NCBI GenBank assembly: GCA_021324465.1
Contig: JAJPJB010000004.1
Coordinates: 1-45,313, forward strand
From: Hyphomicrobiaceae bacterium
GTDB taxonomy: Bacteria; Pseudomonadota; Alphaproteobacteria; Rhizobiales; Xanthobacteraceae
DNA length: 45,313 nt
Reading direction: 5' to 3'
Positions 7,624 to 17,495 of this stretch are shown here, piece by piece (the first letter of the stretch is position 1; each line of letters begins with the position of its first letter). Made by a program: the position numbers and the translations under genes. The notes below the pieces were generated by a model, which was not told the origin of the DNA, made no database searches, and saw nothing but the letters and a program-made list of their open reading frames with translations.

Positions 7624-8379
7624 ATGAAGCGGCTGCTCGTGACGGCTTTGGCTTCGATTGCGGGTGCCGGGACTGCGCTCGCGGCCGATCTTCCGCAACC
7701 CGCGCCGCCGCCGCCAAGGGCGCCCGCCGTCTACACCGCACCGGCATATAACTGGGCCGGCTTCTATATCGGCGTGAACGGCGGCTATGGTTTTGGCTCC
7801 AGCACCTGGAGCGATCCACTCAATCCTGCGGGCTCGAGTGGCAGCTTCCATACCAACGGCGGCATCGCCGGCGGCACGGTCGGCGTGAATTTCCAGTCCA
7901 GCCAATTCGTGTTCGGCATCGAAGGCGACTTCGACTGGCAGGGCCTCAAAGGCACGAGCGGAAGTGCATTCTGCACTGGTGTCAATACGGCTGCGGGCGT
8001 TACCGGCGCGAGCTGCCAGACCCAGAGCGATTGGATCGGCACGTTACGCGCCCGCGCGGGCTTCGCCGCCGATCGCGTCCTGTTCTACGCCACAGGCGGC
8101 GGTGTCGGTGCCGACGTCCAGGCTGGACTGTCGTCGCTGACAAATCAGAGCAAGAGCAAATTCGGCTGGACCGCTGGCGCCGGCATCGAGGGTGCGTTTG
8201 CCGAGAACTGGACCGCCAAGATCGAATATCTTTATGCCGATCTCGGCACGACGACCTGCAATTCAGCAGGCAATTGCGGATTTGACGGCAAGACGACCGG
8301 TTCGCCCGCGGCTAACGATTCCGTCAAATTCACCGAGAGCCTGATCCGCGCCGGCGTGAATTATAAGTTCAGCTTCTAA
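7624..8379 (+). CDS. Outer membrane beta-barrel protein, Omp25/RopB-like porin
   Basis: The 251-residue protein has a signal peptide (MKRLLVTALASIAGAGTALA) cut before ADLPQPAPPPPR. It continues with the Omp25/RopB/Omp31 hallmark YNWAGFYIGVNGGYGFG and ends in a strand finishing AGVNYKFSF with a terminal Phe. Repeated Gly-aromatic strands (VNFQSSQFVFGIEGDFDW, FGWTAGAGIEGAFAENWTAK, IEYLYADLG) fit an eight-stranded OmpA-like barrel. These are abundant surface proteins of Brucella, Rhizobium and Bradyrhizobium. The ATG at 7624 has GGAGCG eight bases upstream; the longer open frame from 7399 is not needed. A strong terminator hairpin follows about 33 bases after the stop. Confidence 0.9.
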   Translation: MKRLLVTALASIAGAGTALAADLPQPAPPPPRAPAVYTAPAYNWAGFYIGVNGGYGFGSSTWSDPLNPAGSSGSFHTNGGIAGGTVGVNFQSSQFVFGIEGDFDWQGLKGTSGSAFCTGVNTAAGVTGASCQTQSDWIGTLRARAGFAADRVLFYATGGGVGADVQAGLSSLTNQSKSKFGWTAGAGIEGAFAENWTAKIEYLYADLGTTTCNSAGNCGFDGKTTGSPAANDSVKFTESLIRAGVNYKFSF

Positions 8380-8411
8380 ACCCGAGATGCGGGCAACGGC
8401 GGGAGTTGCAT

Positions 8412-8446
8412 CGAAGGCGCGTCATTTGTGCCGCGCCTTCGCTTTT
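8412..8446 (+). terminator. Rho-independent terminator of the porin gene
   Basis: A perfect ten-base inverted repeat (CGAAGGCGCG at 8412-8421 and CGCGCCTTCG at 8432-8441) with a ten-base loop is followed by CTTTT on the plus strand. It lies 33 bases after the porin stop codon. Confidence 0.75.
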
Positions 8447-8490
8447 CGGCCGAGCGCTGCGATGAAACGTTACAACCGTTCACGCGATCG

Positions 8491-8525
8491 CAAATAAAAA
8501 GAGGCGCCGTCGTTTCCGGCGCCTC
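8491..8525 (-). terminator. Rho-independent terminator of the lanthipeptide precursor gene
   Basis: On the minus strand a perfect nine-base stem (GAGGCGCCG / CGGCGCCTC at 8517-8525 and 8501-8509, seven-base loop) is followed directly by TTTTTATTTG. It lies about 120 bases downstream of the stop codon of the 49-residue precursor gene. No other minus-strand gene lies between, so it most likely ends a short precursor-only transcript. It also insulates the locus from the porin gene. Confidence 0.75.
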
Positions 8526-8646
8526 GTCGGAAGACCGTGTCAGTCCGACAATCAAAGGCGAAATTTCAAGGCCGAAATTTCAATGCCAAGTCTACACTGC
8601 CAGCCGGTCTTGGCGCCGGCCGCTGGCAACCGGGATCAGATCCCGA

Positions 8647-8796
8647 TCACGCCGGGCAGGTATCGAGACCGGAGCAGAACGCAAGCGTGAAGGCGCCAGC
8701 GTTTTCCTTCACCGTGGCCGCCGCGGCTTCCAGCGCCTCGTCGGAAACTTGAAAGGTGAGGATTTCCTCTTCGGTCTGCTCGATGGTGTGTTTCAT
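8647..8796 (-). CDS. Lanthipeptide precursor peptide (LanA-type), 49 aa
   Basis: This short gene encodes 49 residues. The first 27 or so form an acidic, helix-prone leader (EQTEEEILTFQVSDEALEAA), of the Glu/Asp- and Leu-rich kind read by LanM enzymes. The C-terminal part ends in AFTLAFCSGLDTCPA, with Cys41 and Cys47 as thioether donors and Thr37, Ser42 and Thr46 as residues that could be dehydrated. A Gly-Ala step (Gly34-Ala35, preceded by Ala33) is the nearest thing to a double-Gly-type cleavage site. AAAGGGA lies eight bases before ATG. The gene diverges from lanM across 191 bases, with its own sigma70-like promoter and terminator. Ring pairing (for example Thr37-Cys41 and Ser42-Cys47) is inference, as is bioactivity. 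Confidence 0.85.
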   Translation of the reverse strand: MKHTIEQTEEEILTFQVSDEALEAAAATVKENAGAFTLAFCSGLDTCPA

Positions 8797-8882
8797 AGCG
8801 ATGTTCCCTTTGTTCGCCAGCGGCGCCGGCAGTCACCAGGCAGGACGAGAAATTGTTTGAAAACCCCCCCGCCAAGGCGCCC

Positions 8883-8911
8883 ATTAAATCATCGGCGGCC
8901 GATAGTGTAAA
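8883..8911 (-). promoter_or_regulatory. Sigma70-like promoter for the lanthipeptide precursor, with palindrome in the spacer
   Basis: On the minus strand a -35-like TTTACA (8906-8911) and a -10-like TTTAAT (8883-8888) are separated by exactly 17 bases. The start of transcription would be near 8876, giving a leader of about 80 bases before the precursor ATG. The spacer contains a perfect inverted repeat ATCGGC-G-GCCGAT (8891-8903), well placed for a repressor. No regulator gene adjoins the locus, so the factor is unknown. Confidence 0.5.
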
Positions 8912-8987
8912 GTCTGTCGCGCCATAGGGCAGGTGACTGATTTATGAAGACAAACGCTCGATTTTGCCGACCGTTTTTGGGCTCGAA

Positions 8988-11900
8988 ATGAGCACGGGGA
9001 AAGCCGGTTCCGAGGCCGTTGACGCAACGGCCGCCGCGCCTTCAGAATCGGCGTCAGGCGATTGCGGCGGCGCCACGATGGCGGACGCTCGACCGGCCGC
9101 TGCGGCAGCGCAATGCGACGAAAGTCTCATCCTGCGCGCGGCCAGCCTCGACGAGCTTCTGTCCGCCGACTTCGAGACGGTGCATCAGGGTGCCATCGCT
9201 GCCGATCTGGCCGGCAGACGGCTCGAAGCTTGGGCCAAGGCCAGCACCGGCGGCAACGCGGCGCTGTTCGAGCGGCGTCTCGCCCGCGACGGCCTGTCGC
9301 TTGCGCAGGTGCGGCAGCGCCTTGGCGGGGCGCGCCGCAAGGCTTGCGCGCCAGTGCCGGCCTGGGCCGCCGACGCCGCCTGGATCGAGGCGGCGCTTGG
9401 CGATCGCGCGGCGGCGTCGCAAGGTGATGGCAAGCAACCTGACCAGCCGGCTTGCGCTTTCGACCGGCTGCTCATGCCGGTGGTCGCCAAGGCCGACGCG
9501 ATCATGCGCGCGGATCTGGCGCCGCGCGTGATCGAGCTTCTGACCGCGCGCGCGCAGGCCGATCTGCGCCATGTCCTGCTGCGCGATCTGTCGGCGCTAG
9601 CCGCACCGGCGCTCTATGAGCGTTTTGCCAAAGCGCGCAGCGATGCCGCGGCGAGCGACCGAGGCGCGCAGGCGGGCGGCACGGCAGTCTACGACGCCTT
9701 TGTCAGCGCTATGCAAGCGAGCGGCTTGCACGAGCTTTTCACGGCAAAGCCGGTGCTGTTGCGCCTGATCGCGACACTCACACGGCAATGGATCGACACG
9801 ACGCGCGAATTCCTGTTGCGGCTTGATGCCGACTGGCCGCTCATTCGCCGCGATCTGCTCGGCGAGGCGGCGCACAAAGTCAGCGAGCCGGCGCACAAGG
9901 TCGAGCGCATCGAAGGCGATCTGTCCGACCCGCACAATTTTGGCCGATCGGTGCGGATCATCGCGTTCACCGATGGCGCGCGCGTGGTCTATAAGCCCAA
10001 AGACGTGCAGGTCGAAGCGGCTTGGCATGCGCTGATCGATCGCCTCAATCGCGCCGATCCGCCGCTTGCGCTACGTGCCCCCAGCAGCATCCCGCGCCAC
10101 GACGCCGCCGGCCACTATGGCTGGAGCGAATTCATAGCGCATGCGGGATGCGGGGATGCCGACGGCTGCCAGCGATTTTTCCGCCGCGCCGGTGCGTGGC
10201 TGGCGCTGTTTCACGTCTTCGCGGCGACCGACATGCATCAGGAAAACATGATTGCAGCGGGCGACCATCCGGTGCCGGTCGATCTCGAAACGATTTTGCA
10301 GCCGAGCGCCGAAGAGCACAAAGCCGGGGAGCCGGAAAGCGAAGCTTTCGATGCCGCGCTCGACATCATAGCCAATTCGGTGATGACGGTCGGCCTCCTG
10401 CCCGCCTATGGGCGCGGGGTCGACAACAGCGTGTTCGCCATGGGCGGACTGACGGCGGACTGGGGTGCAAGAACGGTCATCGCCTGGAACGACATCAATT
10501 CCGACGCGATGCGGCCGGCCAAGGCCAAGGAGGCGGGCTATCGCAATACCAACCTGCCGCATGTCGGCGGCCGCTACGCCAAGTTCGCCGATCACATCGA
10601 CGATTTTGTCGCCGGCTTTGCCGAATTTGCACATTTCCTGCGACGCCGCATCAGCGAGGCAACGCCGACGGCTTTGTTGGCAGGCTTTGCCGGCCTGCTG
10701 GTGCGCAAAGTCGTCCGCCCCACCCGTTTCTACTCGATGCTGCTGCAGCGCCTGCGCAATCATCAGGCGATGGACGACGGCGTCCTCTGGTCGGCGCAGG
10801 CCGACTTTGTCGCGCGGCTCGCCGAATGGGACAGGGAGAACGAGCCGCTGTGGCCGCTCTTGCGCGCCGAGCGGTCGGCGCTTGTCGCCCTCAACGTGCC
10901 GCACTTTATGACGCCGAGCGACGGCGACGTGATCATCGACGCGACCGGCATCGCGGCAAAGACCGCGGCCACACCCGGCCTGCGGCGCGCGCTGGCGCGT
11001 GCCGAAAATCTCGACGCGCGCGAGATTGCTTGGCAGGCCGAGGTCATCGGCGCAAACACGAATTCGCTCGCCAAGCCTGCAGCAGCCGCAAGCGCCGCGA
11101 CGCCCGAGCCGGCAAATCTCTCTTCCATTGCGGCGCAGCAGGCGTTCTTGCGGGAAGCCGACGCGATCGCGACCGAATTGTCCCGCCTCGCCATTCGCCG
11201 TGGACCCGGCGCCGCCTGGATCGGGCTCGATTGGCTCGGTGACAGCGAGGTCTTTCAACTCGTCTGTCTGGGTCCGGACCTCTACAACGGCACTGCGGGC
11301 ATTGCGGTTTTTTTCGCTGCGCATGCCGCGGTGACGCGGCAAGCTTCGTCCGGCGAGCTTGCGCGGGCAGCGCTTGCGCATCTGCGCAGGAACCTGAACG
11401 GCGCAAACGCGGCGCGCTTCGCGCGCGCGCTGGGCACCGGCGGCGCGACCGGCCTGGGCTCCGTCGTCTATGCCTTGGCGGTGATCGCAAAGCTTATCGA
11501 CGATGAGGTCTCGCTGGCCGACGCGCACCGTGCCGCCAGCCTCTTCTCCGATGACTTGATCGCCGCCGACAAGCAACTCGACGTGATCGGCGGCAGCGCC
11601 GGCGGCATTCTCGGCCTGCTTCGTCTCCACCGCGACACGCAGTCGGGCGACGCGCTCGCGCGCGCGGTCAAATGCGGCGAGCATCTGTTGGCGCAGCCGC
11701 GCGTCGGAACGGAAGGGCGCCGCAGCTGGCCGGTGCAGGGCAAGACGCTCAACGGCATGTCGCATGGCGCGGCCGGCTTTGCTTATGCGCTGGCTTTGCT
11801 CGCCGCCGCGAGCGGCCGCGATGACTTTGCCGATGCTGCGGCCGAATGCATCGCTTTTGAAGATTCCACTTACGACGCGGCGCGCCACAATTGGCCGGAT

Positions 11901-12338
11901 CTGCGTGCGCGCGAACCGCATTGGCCGTGCCAATGGTGCCATGGCGCAATCGGCATCGGCCTGTCGCGGCTTGGCCTGCACAAAGGCCGCGCCGGCATCG
12001 CCGCCGCCTCCGACATCGACAAGGCGATCGCCGGCGTGCAAGACAACGCGCCCACGCCGCTTGATACGCTCTGCTGCGGCACGCTGGGCGGCATCGAATT
12101 TCTGTGCGAAGCCGGTACGGCACTTGATCGCGGCGATCTGCGCGAGGCGGCATCGCGCCGCCTGCTCGCGGTCATCGCGCGGGCAAAGGCCGCGGGCGAT
12201 TACCGCTGGAACAGCGGACAGCGGCGGTTCAATTTGGGACTGTTCCGCGGGCTTGCCGGCATCGGCTACACTTTGCTACGGCAGGCGGCGCAATCGCGCG
12301 CCGATATTTCATTGCCCAATGTGCTGATCTGGGACTAG
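8988..12338 (+). CDS. lanM: Class II lanthipeptide synthetase LanM, CCG type
   Basis: This 1116-residue enzyme has the two LanM parts. The N-terminal dehydratase (about residues 150-700) phosphorylates and eliminates Ser/Thr of the precursor; its kinase-like core shows VVYKPKD (Lys336, Lys338), the catalytic-loop stretch TDMHQENM (Asp415, His417, Asn420) and VDLET (Asp432, Glu434). The C-terminal LanC-like cyclase (about 750-1116) adds Cys thiols to dehydroamino acids. It carries the GMSHGAAG catalytic His926 and zinc ligands in WCHGAIG (Cys984) and LCCGTLGG (Cys1029, Cys1030). The usual Cys-His-Gly is here Cys-Cys-Gly, as in the substrate-tolerant ProcM. The ATG at 8988 was chosen; a TTG at 8964 and an ATG at 9078 are alternatives. 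No LanT or protease gene adjoins it. It diverges from the precursor gene. Confidence 0.95.
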   Translation: MSTGKAGSEAVDATAAAPSESASGDCGGATMADARPAAAAAQCDESLILRAASLDELLSADFETVHQGAIAADLAGRRLEAWAKASTGGNAALFERRLARDGLSLAQVRQRLGGARRKACAPVPAWAADAAWIEAALGDRAAASQGDGKQPDQPACAFDRLLMPVVAKADAIMRADLAPRVIELLTARAQADLRHVLLRDLSALAAPALYERFAKARSDAAASDRGAQAGGTAVYDAFVSAMQASGLHELFTAKPVLLRLIATLTRQWIDTTREFLLRLDADWPLIRRDLLGEAAHKVSEPAHKVERIEGDLSDPHNFGRSVRIIAFTDGARVVYKPKDVQVEAAWHALIDRLNRADPPLALRAPSSIPRHDAAGHYGWSEFIAHAGCGDADGCQRFFRRAGAWLALFHVFAATDMHQENMIAAGDHPVPVDLETILQPSAEEHKAGEPESEAFDAALDIIANSVMTVGLLPAYGRGVDNSVFAMGGLTADWGARTVIAWNDINSDAMRPAKAKEAGYRNTNLPHVGGRYAKFADHIDDFVAGFAEFAHFLRRRISEATPTALLAGFAGLLVRKVVRPTRFYSMLLQRLRNHQAMDDGVLWSAQADFVARLAEWDRENEPLWPLLRAERSALVALNVPHFMTPSDGDVIIDATGIAAKTAATPGLRRALARAENLDAREIAWQAEVIGANTNSLAKPAAAASAATPEPANLSSIAAQQAFLREADAIATELSRLAIRRGPGAAWIGLDWLGDSEVFQLVCLGPDLYNGTAGIAVFFAAHAAVTRQASSGELARAALAHLRRNLNGANAARFARALGTGGATGLGSVVYALAVIAKLIDDEVSLADAHRAASLFSDDLIAADKQLDVIGGSAGGILGLLRLHRDTQSGDALARAVKCGEHLLAQPRVGTEGRRSWPVQGKTLNGMSHGAAGFAYALALLAAASGRDDFADAAAECIAFEDSTYDAARHNWPDLRAREPHWPCQWCHGAIGIGLSRLGLHKGRAGIAAASDIDKAIAGVQDNAPTPLDTLCCGTLGGIEFLCEAGTALDRGDLREAASRRLLAVIARAKAAGDYRWNSGQRRFNLGLFRGLAGIGYTLLRQAAQSRADISLPNVLIWD

Positions 12339-12371
12339 CCGCGGATCGATCGCGCGGCAACGCCGATGAAC

Positions 12372-12537
12372 GCGACTTCAGCGTCAATGTTGCGCTTGAA
12401 TTGTCGCGAATTCGTACGCGAATTGAAATTTTCGGATCGGAATCGAAATAGGCTTGGCGGATCCTCGACCGACTCTTGACGTGCTGCTCCCAGCCGTTGC
12501 TGCGCACAAGGAATTTACGCTCGATCTCGAAATTCAT
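12372..12537 (-). pseudogene. Truncated CYTH-domain (triphosphate-tunnel enzyme) gene, N-terminal fragment
   Basis: Starting from ATG at 12537 the frame reads MNFEIERKFLV, the diagnostic EIERKFLV strand of the CYTH/class IV adenylate cyclase/thiamine-triphosphatase family. It continues with RIRQAYFDSDPKISIRVRIR and ATLTLKS, matching the next CYTH strands. After about 55 residues the likeness ends abruptly near 12372. The rest of the open frame (to 12229) runs antisense into the lanM 3' end and no longer looks like CYTH, whose members are usually 150-200 residues or longer. The break falls about 35 bases from the lanM stop codon, suggesting that a rearrangement bringing in the lanthipeptide locus cut this gene. 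No matching C-terminal half was seen at the other edge of the locus. Confidence 0.7.
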
Positions 12538-12849: not shown

Positions 12850-13404
12850 TTACTGCGCTTTCGCCTTCGCTCCCGTGCATGATGCGTTGATCACGGCTTT
12901 GAACACATCGAAGGATTGCACGGCGACCTGACAGTTCGTGGAGGCATCAGGTGCCACATTGATCACCTGACCGGCAGTCGCGACCTGTTGCTTGCCGTTG
13001 ATATTGAGCGTGATGCTTTCGTTGCCGGGCGCGCCGACCAGGCCGACATTCAAGCGGCCGTCGCCGACGACCAAGTTCTGATTCGGGATGATGTTGTAGG
13101 TGTTTTTCGAGGGCATGATTGCATCGAGCTGCGCCTGCGTCTTGTCGAGCCGGGCCTGCAGCGAGGTCAGCGCCGCGCTTTGCTGATCGATCTTGCGCTT
13201 CTGCTCCTGACCCTGCGCGACCAATTGCTCGATGGCGGCGTCGCGGCCGCCCAGATCCCTGCTGGCGAGATAGCGGCCGTAGAAGTGGCCGCCGATCAAG
13301 ATCACCAACAGCGACACAATGCTGGCGGCAATCAGCACGAAAGGAACATCGCCCGACAGATTGCGGCGCCGGCGGGTCGGAGCTGGTTGCATTCGCTCGC
13401 TCAC
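12850..13404 (-). CDS. Membrane-anchored coiled-coil protein of unknown function
   Basis: This 184-residue protein is unrecognised. A short basic N-terminus (RRRRNL) precedes one membrane segment (VLIAASIVSLLVILIGGHFYG, about residues 22-44). A likely coiled coil follows (about 55-95, with QEQKRKIDQQSAALTSLQAR), then a Gly/Asn/Val-rich globular tail with two Cys (TNCQ and ASCTG) that could form a disulfide outside the membrane. The GTG at 13404 is used because GGAGA lies just ahead; ATG at 13392 is the alternative. It starts 12 bases after the SPFH gene stop, so the two are almost surely co-transcribed and may act together. Confidence 0.72.
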   Translation of the reverse strand: MSERMQPAPTRRRRNLSGDVPFVLIAASIVSLLVILIGGHFYGRYLASRDLGGRDAAIEQLVAQGQEQKRKIDQQSAALTSLQARLDKTQAQLDAIMPSKNTYNIIPNQNLVVGDGRLNVGLVGAPGNESITLNINGKQQVATAGQVINVAPDASTNCQVAVQSFDVFKAVINASCTGAKAKAQ

Positions 13405-13416
13405 CGTCTTCTCCGC

Positions 13417-14826
13417 TCAGTGTTGCGACGAGGCCGGCGACGGCGCCGGGGCGGGCGCCGTCAGTTCGGCGCCGGCGCGCAGCACACCGGAAATGCGCGA
13501 CAACAGCGAGCGTACGCCAGGGACATCGAGCGGTCCGGCAGCGCGCGCGGTGTTGCCTGCCTCCGCGGTCAGAGCGCTTGACGCCGTCGCGTCGTTGTCC
13601 GGCGGCGCGGTGCTCGATGATTTGCCCTGTGTCCCCGGCGCGCTTGGCGCCGCGGGCGTCGCGCCGCCGCCCTGCGGCGGCGCTTGGATCGCCGGCGCGG
13701 TCGGACCGGATTGCGGATTCGGACTTGATGCGGCGTTCGGCGTTGCGCCCGGCGCCGGCGGCGTCCCCGACGGTCCGGACGTATTGCCACCACCGGTTCC
13801 CGGTTGCGCAGCGGTGCCCACGCCAAGCGGGCTCTCGCCGCTATTGAGGATGATCGGCAGACCATCCTTGCCGCTGCCGATCACGACGATCTTGGCATTC
13901 GGCGATTGGGCGAGTTCGAGCGTGGCCTCAATGCCGCGCCAGCGCAAATAGGAATCGGAAATACCCTGACTGACGGTCTTTTGGAAAGCGGCAATGCCGT
14001 CGGCTTCGATCTGCTTGCGCCTGGATTCCTCGGCCTCGCGTTGCACGCGGAACTTATATTCCTGGATCATGTAGTACTGTTCGGTCTGCCGATTGATCGC
14101 CGAGACAATCTCGGGCGGGAGTTCGATCGACAGCACCAGCGTGTCGAGGATCTGAATCGAATCCTGCAGGAAGTCATTGTAGTGTTTCGGATCCGGCTGC
14201 TCCATCGCTTCCGGCTGCACCAGTTTGTTAAGATTGGCAGCCAGGCTGCGCTGCGCATTATCGCGGATCTGCTTCTGGATCGACTCGCGCGACGTATAGA
14301 CCTCTTCCGCCGTATAGAGCGAAATCACCTGCCGCGCCTGGCTGCCGATCTCGGGGCTGATCACCGAATTGAAATAATCCGGGCCGATGAATTTGTGCAG
14401 CACGGCGACCGGGTTGTGCAACAACTGGTAGCGCACGCTGATCTGCGCTTTGACGTTCACGCCGTCCTTGGAAATCGCATTGTAGGTCTGTGTCGAGGAC
14501 TGCAGCCGCAGATCATAGAGGAATAATTTATCCCACGGCCAGACCAGGTGCAGGCCTTCTTCGCGGATCTCGCGCGGGTCGAGCACGGTGCCGCGGCCGA
14601 CCCAGCACCAGCAATAGATGTAGATGCCGTTGAAGCGCTTCCACAGCACACCGACCCGCCCGCTCGGAATGGTGATCACCACATAGGGCCACAGCACAAC
14701 GATGATCAGAATCGCCGACAAGAGCAGGACCGAAAGGGCCGGCAGGTGGCGCCAGAGATAGCGTCGCCAGCCCCGCTGCCGCGGCAGCGCCTTGAGGTCG
14801 TCAATGGACTGCGGATAGTTCGCCAT
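13417..14826 (-). CDS. SPFH/band-7 (prohibitin/HflK-like) membrane protein
   Basis: The 469-residue protein has one N-terminal membrane segment (LPALSVLLLSAILIIVVLWPYV, about residues 29-50) followed by an SPFH/band-7 domain (about 50-300) containing IPSGRVGVLWKRF near its start and a helical, charged end (VQREAEESRRKQIEADGIAA). The last 140 or so residues are Pro/Gly/Ala/Ser-rich low complexity. SPFH proteins form large rings or cages that organise membrane microdomains and often control partner proteases or transporters. The ATG at 14826 follows GGAG; a GTG lies one codon upstream. It lies 24 bases after the cyclic-peptide-type exporter gene, so a role in organising that transporter is plausible but unproven. 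Confidence 0.82.
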   Translation of the reverse strand: MANYPQSIDDLKALPRQRGWRRYLWRHLPALSVLLLSAILIIVVLWPYVVITIPSGRVGVLWKRFNGIYIYCWCWVGRGTVLDPREIREEGLHLVWPWDKLFLYDLRLQSSTQTYNAISKDGVNVKAQISVRYQLLHNPVAVLHKFIGPDYFNSVISPEIGSQARQVISLYTAEEVYTSRESIQKQIRDNAQRSLAANLNKLVQPEAMEQPDPKHYNDFLQDSIQILDTLVLSIELPPEIVSAINRQTEQYYMIQEYKFRVQREAEESRRKQIEADGIAAFQKTVSQGISDSYLRWRGIEATLELAQSPNAKIVVIGSGKDGLPIILNSGESPLGVGTAAQPGTGGGNTSGPSGTPPAPGATPNAASSPNPQSGPTAPAIQAPPQGGGATPAAPSAPGTQGKSSSTAPPDNDATASSALTAEAGNTARAAGPLDVPGVRSLLSRISGVLRAGAELTAPAPAPSPASSQH

Positions 14827-14850
14827 CACCGGGTCTCCAGGCCCCCATCA

Positions 14851-16491
14851 TCAGCCCATTGTGCGTTGGTCGACAATACGTCCCTCATCCATCCGGATCC
14901 TGCGCGCCGGCAGATGCAGCTCGTCGAGATAGCGGTCGTCGTGGGTAATGACCACGATGGTGGCGCCGGCCTGCATCATTTCCGGCAGCAGCTCGTCATA
15001 GAATTTGCGGCGATATTCGGGATCCTGCTCGGCGGTCCACTCGTCAAGCAGCATGATCGGCCGCTTTTCCAGCATGCTGACGATCAAGGCAAGGCGCCGG
15101 CGCTGGCCGCCGGACAGATCAAGGGTGCGGAATTCGCCGTCGACCAGAGCGGTCTTGTCATCGAGGCGAAATTGTCGCAGCAGGCGGTCGAGCTCCGCCG
15201 GCTCCGCCGCCTCGATCCCATACAGCTTCTGGAACAGGTGGTAATCGAAGAATATCGCCGACATCAGCGCGCGATAATCATCGCGATTGTTGTCGTTGAT
15301 GCGCATCCCGTCCAGGAAAATGTCGCCAGAATCGGGCGGGTAAAGTCCCGCGAGCACGCGCAGGAAGGTGGATTTGCCCGAGCCATTGCCGCCGGTGATG
15401 AAGACAAGATCGCCCGCATGCAACGTGAAATCGATCGGCCCGATCTTGAACACGGTGTCGGAAAAGCGGTCGGTATAGCGGAAGACGATGTTCTGCAGTG
15501 TGATCGTCTGGAACCGAGGCCGCGCGGCGATCTCGCGCGGTTCGATCCCGGCTAGCGTCGATTGCAACGCGGCTTCCAGGCGATCGATGCGGTCGGCCGC
15601 GGCATTGGCATTGAGCAGGATCGGGATCGACTGCACCAGGCCGAAACAGGCGCCGACCACGAACAACAACGCCGTGGTGGTTTTGGCGATGGAAGAACCG
15701 CCGAGCGAGTCGCTCAAGTTCGGGGCGATGAAGACGACTGCGCCGAGCAGCACATACATCGAGATCTGCGAGGTGACGATCATCCTGAAGGTTTCGGCCT
15801 GGGTGCGGATCTTGATATTGGCCGCGGTCTTGGAGACGTCCAGCGCATCGGCAAACAGATCGTTGCTGCGTGCACGATTAAGGCGCACTTCCTTGAAGCC
15901 GTTGAGAAAGTCGGTCAGCCGATCGAACAGCCGGCGCTCCCACGCCGCCGACTCGCCCTTTTGCGCCGCGAGACGCCTGTTCTTGTAGTGAAAGATGACC
16001 GCCGCGCCGGACACAATGACCACGGTAAGCAGAAAGGCCGCAAGCGACAGATAGGCCACATAGAGACCGACGAAAAAGATCAGCACCGCGCCCTGCGTGG
16101 TGAAGGCAAGCATGTTGCTCGCCTGCGTGAGGATGGCGGTATCGCTGGTCACCGCAGCGACGATGCGCGAGCGGCCGATCTTTTCCAGCTCCAGAAGCTC
16201 GGAACGGCGGATCATGTCCATCAGCCGCACGCGCAGCTTGTGGATGATCGCCTCGATTTCGGCGGTCGCCGTGATCGTTACATATTGCTGCGTCTTGAAA
16301 AACAGAAACAGCGCGACCAGAAACAGCACCGCGGCCCACAGTCCAGGCTTCGAGCCGCCGCTGGTATCCTGCACGCCGGCATTGATGGCGGCCAGAATCG
16401 AAGCATTGCTGATGCCGCCGAGGCCGGACATGAAGACCAGCTTCGGCAGCGAGCCGTGCATTTCGCGGCGAACGAGCTGGAAGAAGGACAT
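14851..16491 (-). CDS. Cyclic-peptide-type ABC exporter (SyrD/PvdE family), fused membrane and ATPase domains
   Basis: The 546-residue half-transporter has an N-terminal six-helix membrane domain (about 1-310) and an ATPase domain (about 330-546). The ATPase has Walker A GGNGSGKST, signature LSGGQRRRLAL, Walker B IMLLDEWTAEQDP and switch His in VITHDDRYL. The DEW-A-x-QDP wording after Walker B is characteristic of the SyrD/PvdE/cyclic peptide exporter family, which moves peptide siderophores, lipopeptides or microcin-like peptides across the inner membrane. There is no C39 peptidase domain, so it would not trim a leader. It heads a tight cluster with the SPFH and coiled-coil genes, convergent with lanM. 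Export of the lanthipeptide is an attractive inference; the cargo is unknown. Confidence 0.88.
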   Translation of the reverse strand: MSFFQLVRREMHGSLPKLVFMSGLGGISNASILAAINAGVQDTSGGSKPGLWAAVLFLVALFLFFKTQQYVTITATAEIEAIIHKLRVRLMDMIRRSELLELEKIGRSRIVAAVTSDTAILTQASNMLAFTTQGAVLIFFVGLYVAYLSLAAFLLTVVIVSGAAVIFHYKNRRLAAQKGESAAWERRLFDRLTDFLNGFKEVRLNRARSNDLFADALDVSKTAANIKIRTQAETFRMIVTSQISMYVLLGAVVFIAPNLSDSLGGSSIAKTTTALLFVVGACFGLVQSIPILLNANAAADRIDRLEAALQSTLAGIEPREIAARPRFQTITLQNIVFRYTDRFSDTVFKIGPIDFTLHAGDLVFITGGNGSGKSTFLRVLAGLYPPDSGDIFLDGMRINDNNRDDYRALMSAIFFDYHLFQKLYGIEAAEPAELDRLLRQFRLDDKTALVDGEFRTLDLSGGQRRRLALIVSMLEKRPIMLLDEWTAEQDPEYRRKFYDELLPEMMQAGATIVVITHDDRYLDELHLPARRIRMDEGRIVDQRTMG

Positions 16492-16940: not shown

Positions 16941-17495
16941 TCAAGGTGTGGTCGCTGTCGTCGTCTCGCTCTTGCGCGCGCTCGACCGCGACTCCCACAT
17001 TTCCTTCTGCGCTTTGACGAATTCGCGGTAATCCGGAGGGTTGAAATCGAGCAGCGTGCCCCCGGATTCGAAGTGCTGGATGAACGCCTTGCCGATGGCA
17101 TAGGTGGCGCCCGCCGACAGCACCGGCATGACAAAACCGGCCGCCAGCATACCGAGAATCGGCACGGTCTTGACCGCGCTCGCCGCGCCCATGCCGCTGG
17201 TCGCCGGAATCATGGTTCCGGCGAGCGCCGCAATCAGCACCTTGCCGCGGTTTTCCGAGAACTCGACATTATAAATCTGCGACAGCCGACGCAGCATCTG
17301 CACCTGAAGACCGCCGACGCAGAGCAAGTCGACCACCGGGATCGGGACAAAGCCGGCAACGCCGGACCACACCGCAAAGCGGTCGACCAGCTTGTTGGCC
17401 AGCACATCGCGAGCCTCGGTCTCGGTCGTAGTCGAACCTGCCGCGATGGCTTCGTCTCTCTCTGGGCTGGCGGACGCGGTCGGTTTCTGTGCCAT
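16941..17495 (-). CDS. YcjF/DUF697-like membrane protein
   Basis: The 184-residue protein resembles the DUF697/YcjF family. It has the DRFAVWSGVAGFVPIPVVDL stretch, then LQVQMLRRLSQIYNVEFSEN and a Gly/Ala-rich hydrophobic hairpin (about residues 80-140) ending with the FIQHFESGGTLLDF region. These proteins are small inner membrane proteins, often next to GTPases, of unknown biochemical role. The ATG at 17495 is preceded by AAAGGA. It is the upstream member of the minus-strand group leading to the ABC exporter, but the 120-base gap below it makes operon membership uncertain. Confidence 0.75.
   Translation of the reverse strand: MAQKPTASASPERDEAIAAGSTTTETEARDVLANKLVDRFAVWSGVAGFVPIPVVDLLCVGGLQVQMLRRLSQIYNVEFSENRGKVLIAALAGTMIPATSGMGAASAVKTVPILGMLAAGFVMPVLSAGATYAIGKAFIQHFESGGTLLDFNPPDYREFVKAQKEMWESRSSARKSETTTATTP

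Follow-up and report, generated by a model that had tools for sequence, protein, structure and literature searches.

The closest described counterparts of the system reported in this study are ProcM and SyncM of marine picocyanobacteria, in which a class II lanthipeptide synthetase (LanM) with a CCG motif is accompanied by precursor genes that are scattered over the genome and encode a common leader followed by varied cores (PMC10783134, PMC10027976). The CCG motif is described as a mark of ProcM-like, promiscuous LanMs (PMC10783134, PMC10027976, PMC12328550, PMC11251773), and the characterised ProcM-like systems named in PMC10783134 are marine cyanobacterial. Homologous ProcM-like clusters have been estimated in alpha- and gamma-proteobacteria (PMC12328550, citing Arias-Orozco et al. 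2021), genome mining with ProcM has returned highly varying leader families (PMC10027976), and the AzoA peptides of Azospirillum sp. B510 have nitrile-hydratase-type leaders that LahT150, a C39 protease, cleaved in vitro (PMC6363468). Here, we analysed a stretch of 45,313 nucleotides (the window; contig JAJPJB010000004.1 of assembly GCA_021324465.1) from a Hyphomicrobiaceae bacterium, in which a LanM gene lies divergently from a gene for a 49-residue precursor peptide. Comparative analyses suggested that the window is probably the hub of a ProcM-type lanthipeptide system in which one enzyme serves many substrates.

The LanM gene (8964..12338, plus strand) was assigned by domain and family matches, with a DUF4135 dehydratase domain (E = 2.8e-98) fused to a LANC_like cyclase domain (E = 4.2e-51) and 741 bits against TIGR03897 (cut-off 304); its start is uncertain and may be TTG 8964, ATG 8988 or ATG 9078. 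The enzyme keeps the DxHxEN kinase motif, the SHG acid and all three zinc cysteines. In the alignment to LicM2, predicted zinc ligand 1 is Cys992 (WCHG; 11937..11939, plus strand), and predicted ligands 2 and 3 are Cys1037-Cys1038 (12072..12077, plus strand), where the second zinc-binding segment reads LCCG in the window LanM vs LCHG in LicM2, CCG replacing CHG. As judged by this alignment, the window LanM carries a ProcM-like three-Cys (CCG) zinc site. The CC pair is kept in the LanM frames of 20 of the 21 named relatives, among which the frame of M. genavense is interrupted; the LanM of M. simulans is the sole one without it. These two mycobacterial relatives, one with an interrupted frame and one without zinc ligands, would favour the idea that the window LanM is inactive, or that the small frames are not substrates and act, for example, as regulatory peptides. 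The retention of every one of the above motifs in the window LanM, together with the recurrence of Cys, Ser and Thr positions in the cores, makes that explanation very improbable.

The precursor gene (8647..8796, minus strand) encodes a leader of approximately residues 1-27 with a VSDEALEAAA segment and a core that ends FTLAFCSGLDTCPA. The translation of the frame 8796-8647 reads Thr37, Cys41, Ser42, Thr46 and Cys47, in exact agreement with an earlier sequence-only reading of this DNA. That reading had called a class II lanthipeptide locus with a complete LanM, dehydratase and cyclase included, and had proposed that conservation of the 49-residue frame beside homologous LanMs be checked. The fused domains and the TIGR03897 score confirmed the complete enzyme, at least six relatives have the frame next to their LanM, and the locus and precursor calls were borne out by the LanM families and the conserved adjoining frame. 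Divergent homologous frames adjoin LanM in G001, G004, G010 and G017 (73-86% identity, E from 4e-21 to 5e-15), and the profile search located divergent LanM-adjacent precursors in G218 and G214 too. The ratio of nonsynonymous to synonymous substitution rates (dN/dS), calculated on six of the seven LanM-adjacent frames with G214 left out, was 0.27 overall and lower for the core half (0.16) than for the leader half (0.44); by this measure, the LanM-adjacent precursor evolves under purifying selection. A putative precursor promoter, TTTACA-N17-TTTAAT (8883..8911, minus strand), was recognised by pattern match and intergenic alignment, and six of the seven LanM-adjacent precursors have the same pattern 113-116 nt before the start, with TTAAAT as second hexamer in G017. 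It was unmatched in the LanM-adjacent copy of G214 and in the remaining 38 members of the 45-member family set. The window precursor itself matched no Pfam or NCBIfam family and no plasmid sequence at E ≤ 0.1.

The sequence-only reading had also taken the locus to consist of two genes, and this part was not supported: other contigs of the window's genome and of LanM-carrying relatives hold further family precursors, which the search with the window precursor had returned as weaker matches, and a candidate export cassette is co-inherited nearby. With profiles of 25 members (A2) and 32 members (A3), each of nine close genomes that carry LanM was found to have 3-9 genes of the precursor family, and the window's genome (G000) holds three on three contigs, in two core classes. 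Within the window's genus, A2 matched 3-8 times per genome in the six LanM-positive genomes, whereas 13 of the 14 LanM-negative genomes had no match at E ≤ 0.1, and A3 gave members at E < 1e-5 in all six (three in the window's genome) and a best score of E = 0.12 in 13 of the 14. One member (G016:C91:1909-2070) was found in G016, which is 60% complete and in which LanM was not found, so that the precursor is either an orphan or accompanied by a LanM gene that the assembly lacks. Among 198 genomes drawn from the taxonomic family, matches better than E = 1e-4 occurred only in the five LanM-positive genomes of the window's genus that were in the draw. Nine other genomes gave weak matches (0.002-0.05), and at least two of these matches (G117 and G085) adjoin LanM. 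A2 matches at E ≤ 0.1 were present in 18 of the 21 named LanM carriers. The final family set comprised 45 peptides kept from 10 genomes, including 9 of 10 from clean1642 (G214), 4 of 5 from Pseudolabrys CRAIB_MAG94 (G203) and 3 of 3 from palsa_910 (G218). Three copies seen to be degenerate or dubious (G010:C510, G214:C66 and G203:C80) were dropped, as were 13 rows from outside the 10 core genomes. Two opposite-oriented T-x3-C-[ST]-x4-C precursors lie about 1.2 kb apart in G214 (L154; C426:36529-38019), and this pair and the degenerate copy on G214:C66 are possible signs of duplication.

Common to the family peptides are an acidic stretch and a segment of the (V/I)SDEALExAA type, after which comes a core that varies. 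For paralogues within one genome (99 pairs), the mean identity was 55% in the 19-residue leader segment and 35% in the core, vs shuffled-letter baselines of 26% and 20%, respectively. In the window's genome, the comparison of the LanM-adjacent peptide, C9, with C107 gave a clear pattern of shared leader and different core (68% and 30%). A core Cys with a Ser or Thr before it was present in all 43 peptides that were split by motif, at least two Cys were present in 41 of them, and Cys made up 8.2% of core residues vs 0.6% of leader residues. Prochlorosin cores are unconserved, whereas here the class T-x3-C-[ST]-x4-C, to which the window peptide belongs, accounts for 21 of the 45 members (eight genomes), and the class SFP(N/G)(A/S)PTV...CC, hereafter core class II, for seven (seven genomes); the others fall into smaller classes (9/45) or are unclassed (8/45). 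In core class II, comparisons between genomes gave the same identity for leader and core (64% each, 21 pairs). Shared neighbours within 3 kb of its members were found only between the G001 and G010 copies, some flanks being shorter (1.5 kb in G004). The earlier prediction of two rings (Thr37-Cys41 and Ser42-Cys47) is supported by the recurrence of Thr37, Cys41, Ser/Thr42 and Cys47 in the 21 members of the first class; Thr46 varies among family members. Such recurring cores argue for defined targets over random libraries.

These data bear on whether the window could simply hold an ordinary two-gene class II locus, in which LanM modifies the adjacent peptide only and the dispersed relatives are relics or have another role. 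The conservation of the divergent pair, the restriction of the promoter-like pattern to LanM-adjacent copies and the single precursor match in several more distant LanM carriers would fit such a locus. However, the kept dispersed frames are open and retain Ser/Thr-Cys cores, they track the presence of LanM, and purifying selection acts on core class II (dN/dS 0.24, seven sequences, with synonymous sites near saturation). In G005, moreover, the 7.7-kb LanM contig yielded no family member, and five were found elsewhere in the genome. We therefore consider the two-gene explanation unlikely and favour the dispersed system with one enzyme. Of the two dispersed genes in the window's genome, one has genes for a sulfatase and a DsbA-like protein close by (L047), and the other has a gene for an AMP-binding enzyme (L048).

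A candidate export cassette starts about 0.5 kb past LanM on the minus strand. It includes genes for a 184-aa conserved hypothetical protein (12850..13404), with homologues close to LanM at 5 of the 21 named loci, an SPFH/Band 7 protein (13417..14829; PF01145; near LanM in 5/21) and, 2.5 kb past LanM, an ATP-binding cassette (ABC) exporter without a peptidase domain (14851..16491). A DUF697 protein (16941..17495; PF05128; near LanM in 6/21) is a weaker, possible further member. The ABC protein belongs to the cyclic-peptide export family TIGR01194 (327 bits, cut-off 286) and is related to YojI, scoring 346 bits under the cut-off of 604 against the YojI model NF007813; it differs from TIGR01194/YojI exporters in its linkage to LanM and Band 7. 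Both the exporter (E ≤ 1e-30) and the Band 7 protein (E ≤ 1e-20) were present in 6/6 LanM-positive and 0/14 LanM-negative genomes of the genus, a split with a chance of 1 in 38,760 when genomes are treated as independent and common descent is ignored. Among 12 further LanM carriers, the exporter was matched at E ≤ 1e-30 in seven: G203, G214, G218, G209, G215, G220 and G031 (34% identity). It is somewhat doubtful that the cassette is a neighbour with its own job, tied to LanM by clade history only. The failure to find it in 5 of these 12 carriers, its orientation opposite to LanM and its distance of as much as 4 kb, and the chance that the LanM-positive genomes of the genus form one clade would favour this explanation, but presence and absence agree throughout the genus, the ABC family is annotated as a cyclic-peptide exporter, and the cassette adjoins LanM in the divergent loci L084 and L078 (LanM identity 46% and 53%) and, in inverted order, in L083. 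A Rhodospirillales metagenome-assembled genome (G220, L089), whose CCG LanM is 37% identical, has four ABC exporter homologues in two adjacent pairs (G220:C130 and G220:C157).

The statement that no LanT adjoins the locus holds strictly, the sole C39 match in the window's genome being without the catalytic Cys. A C39 LanT was accordingly rejected as a candidate, the single match being a type I secretion ATPase with a C39-like domain lacking the Cys. Of nine close LanM-positive genomes, which are incomplete metagenome-assembled genomes, seven gave no C39 match at E ≤ 0.001, and both matches in G004 lack the Cys. A C39 match with the Cys is present in B. neotropicale. LanT-type leader processing is unlikely in the window's genome because its only C39 domain is without the Cys and seven of nine close genomes are without a match. 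As no catalytic-Cys C39 was found in the genome, a leader protease other than a C39 LanT is proposed.

Taken together, the locus resembles a small peptide library with one maker, because the precursor family is scattered and inherited alongside a candidate export pump. The best reading, which we regard as likely, is that of a ProcM-type combinatorial lanthipeptide system of soil Alphaproteobacteria, in which the leader is unclassified, core classes recur and the exporter has no peptidase domain. That the peptides are modified and exported, and what they do, is inferred from the genes. LanM would bind the acidic SDEALE-type leader common to all precursors and would phosphorylate and then eliminate core Ser and Thr residues, and the three-Cys zinc site would close the thioether rings, most likely Thr37-Cys41 and Ser42-Cys47 in the window peptide. 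The leader would be cut by a protease other than the catalytic-Cys C39 type, and the YojI-related exporter, to judge by its family and co-inheritance, may carry the modified peptides out. More tentatively, the products may form a small defined lanthipeptide set and not a random library: fixed classes (e.g. SFPNAPTVSILVxCCGND) would be kept by selection with their genes mostly at differing sites per genome, one CCG LanM would act in trans, and export would be through the peptidase-less YojI-related pump with the Band 7 protein as a membrane scaffold.

Several observations weigh against this reading. In the window's genome only C107 shows the shared-leader/different-core pattern clearly, as C9 and C51 belong to one core class (leader 42%, core 43%), and conservation of core classes I and II sets them apart from the hypervariable prochlorosins. 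Profiles A2 and A3 were built with Cys columns, which biases them toward Cys-bearing matches, and the distant LanM carriers gave 0-3 A2 matches each, mostly weak, with none in 3 of 21. The exporter had no match at E ≤ 1e-30 in B. neotropicale (G205), G208, G085, G117 and G061, and an ABC homologue lies near LanM in just 7 of the 21 named loci, several of which are on short contigs. In the LanM genome search, the first three candidates per genome were scored, and the co-occurrence of precursors and exporter with LanM rests on 20 mostly fragmented and partly incomplete genomes of one genus, with kinship ignored.

Like the prochlorosin and synechococsin systems, the window has a CCG class II LanM with scattered, leader-sharing precursors. 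The prochlorosins have a Nif11-type leader, whereas here one of 32 members matched at E = 0.056 and none significantly; they also have a peptidase-ABC LanT of the C39 type, which contrasts with the window's genome and its lack of a C39 bearing the catalytic Cys. The nine genomes here hold 3-9 precursors vs 29 and 79 in the prochlorosin and synechococsin systems, and the hosts are soil Alphaproteobacteria and not marine picocyanobacteria. The occurrence of several precursors in one alphaproteobacterium is shared with AzoA of Azospirillum sp. B510, but the window family gave no match to a nitrile-hydratase-type leader. ProcM-like systems outside cyanobacteria, proteobacteria included, are already reported. 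Zhang et al. in 2014 (doi 10.1021/cb500622c) reportedly described ProcM-like enzymes in other bacteria. It is possible that the window family overlaps with the ProcM-like clusters reported by them or by Arias-Orozco and colleagues in 2021. Among the papers listed by our search of the open-access literature, with most subscription papers outside its reach, none dealt with this leader family, with the exporter pairing or with lanthipeptides of these genera.

LanM matches at E ≤ 0.001 were found in 14 of 200 related genomes, the window's own counted, and six of the 14 belong to the window's genus, the other five of these six having 60-65% LanM identity. LanM matches were present in 185 plasmid records, each below 60% identity, and the viral contigs searched held no relative of the window LanM. 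On plasmids, a Nostoc LanM with a Nif11 precursor (L208) has CCG and that of Priestia (L209) has CHG, and neither pattern was seen in a second Nostoc LanM frame (L207). The Mycobacterium simiae group has LanMs that belong to the clade of the window LanM, at 52-55% identity (M. triplex L079, M. montefiorense L081, M. genavense L085 and M. simulans L086). They group with alphaproteobacterial LanMs in the tree with modest support (88/91), which suggests LanM transfer between Proteobacteria and mycobacteria. The mycobacterial LanMs adjoin 41-43-residue peptides with a SDEALESAG-type leader; the M. simulans cyclase has lost its zinc ligands, and its precursor partner has a core without Cys, and in M. 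montefiorense LanM is flanked by two Cys-less precursors.

The divergent intergenic region between precursor and LanM (8797..8960) is conserved in an alignment of four sequences, and a palindromic-looking ATCGGCCGCCGAT sits between both promoter-like hexamers. A generic promoter scan, which accepts second hexamers only if their second base is A, missed TTTACA-N17-TTTAAT, and Rfam gave no match at E ≤ 0.1 over 8300-9100. A terminator-like stem-loop downstream of the precursor (8501..8525, minus strand) is weak evidence because one was found and 1.0 is expected by chance. A Gibbs search upstream of the 45 precursors gave an information content of 9.77 at width 12 vs 8.29-9.11 in four shuffled sets, and of 12.14 at width 24 vs 9.96-10.47, with the top result taken from four starts for the real data and from two for each shuffled set. 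A family-wide upstream motif was rejected, and none is claimed, because the best sites were mostly LanM-adjacent copies with a few others (G218:C227, G203:C226) and the numbers of starts were unequal. At the 3' end of LanM, an overlapping short frame with a CYTH domain (12229-12537, minus strand; E = 1.9e-8, positions 2-74 of 179 matched) is apparently what remains of a longer gene.

Lanthipeptide systems with one enzyme and many substrates are valued as engineering tools. A branch of such systems in terrestrial Alphaproteobacteria, in which precursors are very short (about 50 aa) and cores recur, would, if true, provide a compact new enzyme. Precursor genes distant from LanM would escape mining that is confined to the synthetase neighbourhood. 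With no catalytic-Cys C39 found in the genome, leader removal and peptide export become a direct question, and a peptidase-less YojI-related pump acting with Band 7 would, if true, be a lanthipeptide export route not described in the open-access literature listed. The conserved cores, if confirmed, could be assigned to functions singly, which would offer a test of why such libraries exist.

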